Shown: piece by piece, positions 5,131-7,907 of the stretch | Position numbering within the stretch: the first letter of the stretch is position 1 | How the letters are laid out: each line of letters opens with the position of its first letter | DNA from: Pirellulales bacterium | Lineage (GTDB): Bacteria > Planctomycetota > Planctomycetia > Pirellulales > JAEUIK01 | NCBI GenBank assembly: GCA_019694435.1 | Contig: JAIBBZ010000015.1 | Location: 1-64,000 of the forward strand | Direction of reading: 5' to 3' | DNA length: 64,000 nt | Made by a program: the position numbers and the translations under genes | Notes under the pieces: generated by a model | The model's input: only the letters and a program-made list of their open reading frames with translations | Told to the model about the DNA's origin: nothing | The model's database searches: none

Positions 5131-5915
5131 CGCACCGTCCGCATCCCGCGGCGGGTATCAACCACCGGCTCGACCAGGAATCCAACGCCTTGCTGCTGCA
5201 AGAACCTCCCCCGACGCCGTACGACCTGAAGTTCTCGTTGTTCGGCATTCCCGTGCGGATCAGCCCTTACTTCTGGCTGGCGGGCATCGTGCTGGGCGCG
5301 TCGGCACGCAAATTCGAGTTCGTCGTGTTGTGGGTTGTCGCGGCGCTGCTTGCGATCCTGGTTCACGAACTAGGACATGCGTTTGCCGCGCGGCGCTTCG
5401 GCAATCGACCGTCGATCGTGTTACACGCTGCCGGCGGGCTGGCGATCTACAGCCCACGGCGCGAGACCTTGGGCACACGGCTGGCGATTCTTGCCGCGGG
5501 ACCGGGCGCCGGGTTTCTGTTGGCCGCGGTGATCATCGTGTTGCTCAAAGTGTCCAGGCGGGGAATTTTTTTTGAGTTCCCCGGCGACCTGATCGAACTC
5601 GACGGCGGGCAACCGCTCAACTTCCGGCTCAACGTGCTGACGGCCGACGTCCTCTACATCTGCATCTACTGGGGACTGGTGAACCTGCTGCCGATCTATC
5701 CCTTGGACGGTGGGCAGATCGCGCGGCTGCTGAGCGTGCGCCACGATCCGATTCTGGGGGAGTCGCGGGCATCGATGTTGTCGCTGTGGACGGCCGGTGG
5801 CGCGGCGTTGTTCTGTGCCTTCAAGTTTCCAGACAGCCTGTTTTTGCCGCTGTTTTTTGGCTTTCTCGCCTACGAGAACTACCGGGCGTTGCAGTCCGGA
5901 TCGCGCTGGCGCTAG
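5127..5915 (+). CDS. M50 family site-2-type zinc metalloprotease
   Basis: Membrane-embedded protease with a zinc-binding HELGHAFAARRFG motif (HExxH) in its second hydrophobic segment and the downstream NLLPIYPLDGGQ motif, whose Asp is the third zinc ligand. There are about six membrane segments and no PDZ or CBS domain, so it belongs to the compact SpoIVFB/Rv-type group rather than RseP. The start is uncertain: TTG 5127 overlaps the stop of the preceding gene, and another TTG at 5190 begins nearer the conserved region; no ATG is available. It probably cleaves a membrane-bound regulator, but no partner is visible nearby. Confidence 0.85.
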   Translation: MTHRPHPAAGINHRLDQESNALLLQEPPPTPYDLKFSLFGIPVRISPYFWLAGIVLGASARKFEFVVLWVVAALLAILVHELGHAFAARRFGNRPSIVLHAAGGLAIYSPRRETLGTRLAILAAGPGAGFLLAAVIIVLLKVSRRGIFFEFPGDLIELDGGQPLNFRLNVLTADVLYICIYWGLVNLLPIYPLDGGQIARLLSVRHDPILGESRASMLSLWTAGGAALFCAFKFPDSLFLPLFFGFLAYENYRALQSGSRWR

Positions 5916-6132: not shown

Positions 6133-6160
6133 TTGCAGAATTTTTGGAGATTCGTACAAA
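6133..6160 (+). promoter_or_regulatory. candidate sigma-70 promoter for micro-protein gene
   Basis: TTGCAG (6133-6138), a 16-base spacer and TACAAA (6155-6160). It is the best match to a -35/-10 pair in the AT-richer half of the intergenic region and would give a leader of about 210 bases before the gene at 6378. Confidence 0.35.
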
Positions 6161-6377
6161 TAGCTGGCATGAGTTCCGCTCAGGGACAAGACGGTGTGGC
6201 TGCTCAACCCAGCGAGAGTCGTCTCACCGTTTACGAAGGATTGTTGTTTTTCTTGTCAGTGGTGTGCGTGAGCGTGAGGATCGTTTGAGGCATCGCGCCG
6301 AACAGACGTACTGATCGACGTCGAGCAACAAGCGGCACGAGGCACGCCCACCGGGAACTTTTTTTGGAGGACGTAGC

Positions 6378-6458
6378 GTGGCCAAGAAGAAAGCCAAGAA
6401 GGCTGCCAAGGGTGCGAAGAAGGCTACCAAGAAGGCTGCGAAGAAGAAGAAGAAGTAG
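6378..6458 (+). CDS. 26-residue Lys/Ala micro-protein, histone-tail-like
   Basis: GTG-initiated frame of 26 codons coding for 15 Lys and 8 Ala plus single Val, Gly and Thr, arranged as AKK/AAK units (start VAKKKAKKAAKG, end AAKKKKK). GGAGG at 6366-6370 sits 7 bases before the GTG, an ideal ribosome binding site, and a strong intrinsic terminator follows 150 bases downstream. The composition matches the lysine-rich tails of bacterial histone H1-like proteins (Hc1, AlgP-type), so binding to DNA or RNA is a reasonable inference. It stands alone, between a protease gene and convergent mrp. It is too short for most gene finders. Confidence 0.7.
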   Translation: MAKKKAKKAAKGAKKATKKAAKKKKK

Positions 6459-6824
6459 CCTCTGGTAGTGTGTGATTTGCCGGCTGACCGGTCGCAAGAT
6501 TTGTCAGTCGTGTAATCCTCGCCACCTGATGTGGCCCTGCCCGCGAATCGCTTTCGGCCGGACCGCAACGGCTTTGATTCGCAGGCTCCACCGATCACAA
6601 CGAGAAAGGGCCGCCTGGCAACTCTGCCAGGCGGCCCTGTGCTTTTTGCTGATCGCTGCTTCCAGCCAGCCGCGGCTAATCACGCTGTTCGATGCGAAGC
6701 GACTGGTGCCCCCTGCGCTTAACGAGCCCCCCAGCGGCGCCGGGCAGCCGGCCGACGCCTCCGCAGAACTTCGGGGGCCCGGATCTTGGGCTGGCCGGGA
6801 GCGGCCCGCCCGCTGCAGCGGCCG
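6459..6824. other. 366-bp convergent intergenic region
   Basis: Lies between the micro-protein gene (+) and the 3' end of mrp (-). Apart from the terminator at 6608-6647 nothing recognisable was found. Confidence 0.6.
6608..6647 (+). terminator. intrinsic terminator, possibly bidirectional
   Basis: Perfect 13-bp stem GGGCCGCCTGGCA / TGCCAGGCGGCCC with a 4-base loop (6608-6637), then TGTGCTTTTT. On the other strand the stem is followed by TTTCTCGTT, so it could also end mrp transcripts, with weaker effect. Confidence 0.85.
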
Positions 6825-7907
6825 TCAGAGCACCGTCAGGCTCGGCAGTACCGGCGCCGCGCGGTGCCGGTCGGCGAGGCCGCGCACAAGATTGCGGCAG
6901 ATCGCTTCCAGGTACGGCGCCACTTGCGGATCGTCGAACGTGGCCGCGACGCGCCCCGCATCGCCTTCGGCGCGGATGTGCATGTTGATCGGCACTTCGC
7001 CCAGAAAGGGCACCTCGAGTTCGGCCGCCTTACGCTGCGCGCCGCCCGAGCCAAAGATCTCGTACCGCTGGTTGCAGCCAGGACAGAGAAAGTAGCTCAT
7101 GTTCTCGACCATGCCCAACAGCGGAATGTTTACCTTGCGAAACATGGCGATCGCCTTCACAGCGTCGGCCAGCGCCACGTCTTGCGGAGTGCAAACGACG
7201 ACGGCGCCGGTGAGCGGCAACAACTGCGAGAGTGTCAGCGCGATGTCGCCCGTCCCCGGCGGCATGTCGATGATCAGGTAATCGAGCTCGCCCCAGTCGG
7301 TGTCCTTGAGAAAGTTGGTGATCGCGCCGTGCAGCATGGGTCCGCGCCAGACGACCGCATCGCCCGGCGCGACGAGAAACCCCATGCTCATGACCTTCAA
7401 ACCCCCGGCTTCGATCGGCGCGAGCTTCTTCTCGGGCGTGACACTCGGCCGCTGTTGCACGCCGATCAGATGGGGCACGCTCGGCCCGTAGACGTCGGCA
7501 TCCATCAACCCCACGACACAGCCTGCCCGCCGCAATCCAAACGCCAGGCTCGTGGCGATGGTGCTTTTGCCGACGCCTCCCTTGCCGGACCCGACCGCGA
7601 TCACGCTTTTGGCGCACAAGCCGATCTGCCCGATCGGGAGCACGGGCCGCCGCAGGACGTCCAATTGAATGTCGACGGCTGCCAGGCCAGGAAATTTGCT
7701 CCGCAAGGCGGCCGCCAATTCGTCGCGCGTTTGCTGCCAGAGCGGTGCGACGTGGGTCGACAGTTCCAGGACCAGCGCGAGGTGGTCGCCCTGCAGGCGC
7801 ACGTCGCGGACCTGGCCGTTTTCGACCACACCGCGGCCCGACTCCGGGTCGCGAAACCGGGCCAGCTCGGCCTCGATGTCGGCGAGTTGAGGAAGATCTG
7901 CGGCCAT
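6825..7907 (-). CDS. mrp: Mrp/ApbC-type Fe-S cluster carrier ATPase
   Basis: A 360-residue P-loop ATPase. The N-terminal ~90 residues form a MIP18/DUF59 domain; a deviant Walker A motif GSGKGGVGKST follows at about residues 106-116, and LCPGCNQRYEIFG near residue 280 supplies the CxxC pair that binds a bridging 4Fe-4S cluster in the dimer. Family members receive and hand over Fe-S clusters in the cytosol. AAGGAAC lies 8 bases before the ATG. The neighbouring complex I operon encodes many Fe-S subunits, making it a plausible client, but a direct link is inferred. Confidence 0.93.
   Translation of the reverse strand: MAADLPQLADIEAELARFRDPESGRGVVENGQVRDVRLQGDHLALVLELSTHVAPLWQQTRDELAAALRSKFPGLAAVDIQLDVLRRPVLPIGQIGLCAKSVIAVGSGKGGVGKSTIATSLAFGLRRAGCVVGLMDADVYGPSVPHLIGVQQRPSVTPEKKLAPIEAGGLKVMSMGFLVAPGDAVVWRGPMLHGAITNFLKDTDWGELDYLIIDMPPGTGDIALTLSQLLPLTGAVVVCTPQDVALADAVKAIAMFRKVNIPLLGMVENMSYFLCPGCNQRYEIFGSGGAQRKAAELEVPFLGEVPINMHIRAEGDAGRVAATFDDPQVAPYLEAICRNLVRGLADRHRAAPVLPSLTVL

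Follow-up and report, generated by a model that had tools for sequence, protein, structure and literature searches.

A free-standing Lys/Ala micro-protein gene with a conserved leader in Pirellulales, a candidate H1-tail-like polycation

The locus raises the question of whether a frame of only 26 residues, made up mostly of lysine and alanine, is a gene in its own right and, if it is, what its product would do. The frame was analyzed within the whole stretch of 64 kb of Pirellulales DNA, called the window here, and was then compared with related genomes. Its GTG start occupies positions 6378-6380 and its TAG stop 6456-6458, giving the product VAKKKAKKAAKGAKKATKKAAKKKKK with 15 Lys and 8 Ala in 26 residues, as a sequence-only reading of this DNA had described it. 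The GGAGG that the same reading had placed 7 bases upstream of the GTG was found at 6366-6370. The nearest in-frame stop before the GTG is TGA (6312-6314), and no ATG, GTG, or TTG occurs in frame from there to position 6378. By scanning all six frames of the 64 kb, we found no other stretch of 22 residues in which Lys makes up 50% or more, and among the six GGAGG-preceded frames of 15-60 residues in the window, only that at 6378-6458 was Lys-rich. An open frame of 124 residues lies antisense to the gene (6224-6598, minus strand) and has probably arisen as a side effect of the Lys codons. The features of the locus are as follows.

5187..5915 (start approximate), plus strand: M50 peptidase gene, the upstream neighbor.
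6133..6162, plus strand: conserved upstream element TTGCAGAATTTTTGGAGATTCGTACAAATA (TTGCAC-N16-GTACAAMTA), a putative promoter and/or operator.
6163..6377, plus strand: leader of about 215 bases, from leader alignment and distances, with the transcription start inferred from the upstream element.
6260..6353, plus strand: leader hairpin, with outer arms 6260-6270 TGGTGTGCGTG and 6343-6353 CACGCCCACCG, from folds and arm-swap permutation.
6359..6370, plus strand: U-tract and ribosome site TTTTTTTGGAGG, whose GGAGG is conserved in relatives.
6378..6458, plus strand: Lys/Ala frame, GTG-started, coding for the 26-residue protein.
6607..6647, plus strand: intrinsic terminator, a 14-bp stem (6607-6638) followed by GTGCTTTTT, possibly bidirectional with mrp.
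6825..7907, minus strand: Mrp-type ATPase gene (mrp), the downstream neighbor.

Conservation in relatives was the check proposed for the frame. A strict pattern of ribosome site plus frame (GGAGG-N4-10-GTG GCN AAR AAR AAR) was present in 81 of 146 Pirellulales genomes, covering 56 of 88 genera, and the reversed pattern used as control matched none. As this pattern recurs in 81 of the 146 genomes with no match for its reversed control, the 26-mer is not a chance product. In the 65 of 146 genomes lacking the strict pattern, the gene has either diverged, moved, or proved dispensable. A DNA search of 57 genomes matched 45 of them at E ≤ 0.001; the best matches spanned the ribosome site and the frame, and some of the weaker ones were other Lys/Ala-rich stretches. 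In a scan of named genomes, loci of Neorhodopirellula pilleata and Rubripirellula sp. were among the matches listed that carry the frame. Two strict-pattern matches each were observed in G005, G009, G024, G040, G048, G057, and G118, so that some lineages probably have a second copy. When the pattern was given an ATG, TTG, or CTG start, mostly unrelated genes (GroES-like and others) were recovered, along with one true member, L184 (ATG). The start codon across the family loci is nearly always GTG, L184 being the single ATG member seen.

A second family of the class, f21, which is probably Planctomycetaceae by inference, carried the Lys/Ala gene in many genomes. Families f105 and f106 of the class showed almost none; these are probably the orders with well-known condensed nucleoids. 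Beyond the class, strict-pattern matches were scattered or unrelated. The matches listed from scans of the phylum and of named genomes included many unrelated genes starting with VAKKK, and only short Lys-rich frames were retained from them. The relatives thus preserved the frame, its composition, and its ribosome site, often with M50 or mrp alongside, and the lack of conservation that would have spoken against the frame was not observed. Judged from these comparisons, the Lys/Ala micro-protein gene is real and old.

The neighborhood was searched with the window's own M50 and Mrp proteins as queries. M50 preceded the Lys/Ala gene on the same strand at 38 of the 75 family loci with enough flank, mrp lay downstream and convergent at 33 of 74, and one or both adjoined the gene at 42 of 66 loci; these counts are lower bounds because the flanks are short. 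Many loci had neither neighbor, and the gene has therefore also moved or been duplicated. The flank of mrp was also inspected in 24 genomes, the majority of which had no match to the strict pattern, and seven further members came from it. They measure 32 to about 116 residues and all start with GTG, though this codon was not required in that search. Attenuation controlling a downstream gene was also considered and rejected, since no same-strand gene precedes the convergent mrp.

The 65 members found by pattern were 17-110 residues long, the shortest being truncated at contig ends, and the family as a whole ranges from about 20 to about 116 residues. Their composition was 57% Lys and 25% Ala, then Thr, Val, Arg, Pro, Gly, and Ser, with almost nothing else. 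Acidic and aromatic residues were absent, and, large hydrophobic residues being likewise missing, the composition over the 65 members was that of an H1-tail-like polycation. On these lengths, the window's 26-mer is a short version of a gene whose product extends to about 116 residues in relatives. Length that drifts while composition stays constant would suit a function dependent on charge and not on a fold. Codon differences among related pairs comprised 190 synonymous and 112 nonsynonymous changes, and of 413 base changes, 84, 70, and 259 fell on codon positions 1, 2, and 3; the pairs overlap and this is not a formal test, although its direction is clear. The bias to third positions indicates that the frame is under selection at the protein level.

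That the protein has expression signals of its own had also been claimed, and the ribosome site, the leader, and the terminator support it. The terminator stem had been read as a perfect one of 13 bp; it is present and perfect, but it measures 14 bp (6607-6638), with the loop ACTC followed by GTGCTTTTTG and a folding z of −8.2. Terminator-like structures were observed 3′ of 42 of 78 family members and in none of the shuffled or upstream controls.

At the other end of the unit, about half of the family members had the TTGCAC-N16-GTACAAMTA element 183-340 bases 5′ of the start. In a search of 30 genomes it matched 13 times, at most once per genome, and 12 of the 13 matches sit 185-307 bases before a Lys/Ala frame; they include members that were not used in its derivation (L261, L269). 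The window's genome, G000, had one match genome-wide. The conserved element is nearly exclusive to the Lys/Ala gene. At 6133-6162 and at the equivalent sites in L258-L270, TTGCAC and GTACAA form an imperfect inverted repeat about two helical turns apart. A sigma-70 consensus scan did not call the element at 6133..6162, which matches sigma-70 poorly. Given this poor match and the imperfect inverted repeat, the promoter-like element could function as a promoter, as an operator, or in both roles.

Inside the leaders, which measure about 200 bases, the hairpin in Pirellulales usually ended about 20-30 bases before the GTG in the folds. Natural pairs of hairpin arms folded at −20.7 kcal/mol, compared with −16.7 kcal/mol for arms swapped between genomes (permutation p < 1e-4), and control windows differed by about 1 kcal/mol or less; the effect is moderate, as an arm's own partner ranked very best in only 8 of 54 cases. 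A simpler helix score also supported natural over swapped pairing. The f21 leaders showed a 10-bp hairpin around CAAGGTTG together with a conserved GCCCGGT motif, and RNAalifold on ten sequences gave 13 pairs, 10 of them with two-sided compensatory changes. In L248-L257, the hairpin around CAAGGTTG and the motif GCCCGGT...AGCGGCAAG lay roughly 30-130 bases before each GTG. This shared f21 leader is a candidate for an undescribed leader RNA. A search for GCCCGGT-N-AGCGGC in 41 f21 genomes matched 8, four of them directly before a Lys/Ala frame; the motif accompanies the Lys/Ala gene, but the pattern is not exclusive to it. The Rfam 15 covariance models gave no match at gathering level in the window and only weak, unrelated matches in relatives. 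From these alignments and folds, the Lys/Ala gene includes its leader as a conserved part that appears to be structured.

Pfam and NCBIfam profile searches returned nothing for the 26-mer and no model above cut-off for the family, so that, going by these profiles, the Lys/Ala family belongs to no curated family. Neither Hc2 (PF07382) nor NF038053 matched the 26-mer, and longer members reached at most 17.8 bits, compared with a gathering value of 40 for the former and a cut-off of 80 for the latter; the sub-threshold Hc2/NF038053 matches (13-18 bits) came from two longer members and were of the composition type. The frame had no match to the HU/IHF fold (PF00216). It also has neither the N-terminal domain nor the KPAA repeat of AlgP. 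The globular winged-helix domain of eukaryotic H1 was absent as well, the whole product being a low-complexity tail with no Pfam match. Elsewhere in the window's genome, three HU-family proteins are encoded, none with a Lys/Ala tail. Two of them (L246 and L247, on G000 contigs C29 and C8) are divergent, with short N-terminal extensions, and L245 is a more ordinary HU.

What the product does can be weighed on this basis. Our leading reading, which we hold with about even confidence, is that it would be a free, disordered, H1-tail-like polycation, most likely coating or condensing chromosomal DNA alongside the untailed HU. A dedicated single-gene unit would make the free polycation, which should be well translated, would lose its initiator Met (the second residue is Ala), and would remain disordered. 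Like the C-terminal tails of H1 and AlgP, it would then bind nucleic acid through its charge, with chromosomal DNA the most likely partner, and would neutralize and condense the nucleoid together with the separately encoded, tail-less HU proteins. The leader hairpin beside the ribosome site would probably set or regulate synthesis, perhaps, speculatively, with feedback on the leader by the polycation itself. Planctomycetia are described as having highly condensed DNA, with DNA-binding proteins most likely involved (PMC10632474), and a histone homologue had not been found in Gemmata (PMC3440768). Several points, however, count against this reading. RNA, ribosomes, and polyphosphate are bound by a polycation just as easily as DNA is, a chain of 21-30 residues could be too short for bridging DNA segments, 65 of the 146 genomes lack the strict pattern, and families f105 and f106, probably the orders with well-known condensed nucleoids, did not show the gene.

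Action on RNA or the ribosome is unlikely in our estimation, though it and polyphosphate binding are the main rivals. The peptide would then be a small basic factor, binding to rRNA or mRNA or condensing RNA, with autoregulation through its structured leader. The conserved hairpin just before the ribosome site resembles those of autoregulated RNA-binding proteins, the f21 leaders contain compensatory pairs, and the size and charge are like those of small ribosome-associated basic proteins. However, no ribosomal-protein profile in Pfam or NCBIfam matched, the large variation in length is unlike a ribosomal protein, and the window showed no linkage to ribosomal genes. Binding to polyphosphate granules or to some other polyanion, by which the peptide would buffer charge or position granules, we consider rather improbable. 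AlgP, whose tail is similarly rich in Lys and Ala, is associated with polyphosphate granules and required to space them (PMC9239181), whereas the micro-protein lacks the N-terminal domain of AlgP and has no recurring phosphate-metabolism gene as a neighbor.

There is little probability that the functional product is the RNA, as a structured small RNA or cis element, with the frame a by-product or a ribosome-pausing device. The conserved leader hairpin, the gene-specific upstream element, and the terminator would suit such an RNA, and runs of Lys codons could slow ribosomes; yet the third-position bias and a frame maintained over up to 116 residues with a common composition argue for a protein, there is no same-strand downstream gene to control, and Rfam gave no match. 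A functionless chance repeat of AAG, which the low complexity of the sequence might suggest, is hardly credible, as it is contradicted by the zero counts of the reversed controls and by the recurrence of ribosome site, start codon, upstream element, and neighbors in dozens of genera.

Returning to the free DNA-coating polycation, a wider proposal can be built on it. In Pirellulales, and in some members of a second planctomycete family, the stand-alone histone-tail micro-protein would be a main DNA-condensing factor separate from HU, with its synthesis controlled by an undescribed structured leader, possibly bound by the polycation. In this full form the proposal is a doubtful one. The cited reports on the condensation of planctomycete DNA found HU proteins and no histones, and a conserved gene for a free H1-like tail is a named, testable candidate for a part in it, short enough for gene finders to miss. 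The leader and the upstream element offer a handle on its regulation. An earlier description of an order-wide free tail of 21-30 residues with a structured leader was not found in a search of mainly open literature, which is weak evidence.

H1-like Lys/Ala proteins are already known in bacteria, and the C-terminal tail of eukaryotic linker histone H1 is likewise Lys/Ala-rich, disordered, and bound to DNA by charge. The micro-protein is alike in tail type, with no homology claimed, and differs from H1 in having no globular domain, a very short chain, little proline, and a higher share of lysine. With Hc2 (PF07382) and the Burkholderia-type H1-like protein (NF038053) it shares composition and repeat style, but its gene unit and neighbors are different. 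HU proteins with lysine-rich tails occur, for example, in mycobacteria and Deinococcus; the tail is of similar sequence type, whereas here it is a separate gene. AlgP consists of an N-terminal helical domain followed by KPAA repeats, and lysine-rich KPAA peptides from its tail bind DNA in vitro (PMC9239181). AlgP and PhaF of Pseudomonas have the Lys/Ala-rich tail in common with the micro-protein; in both, the tail follows an N-terminal domain and carries KPAA repeats, whereas here the mostly proline-free tail is the whole protein, and the family shows that such a tail can exist independently.
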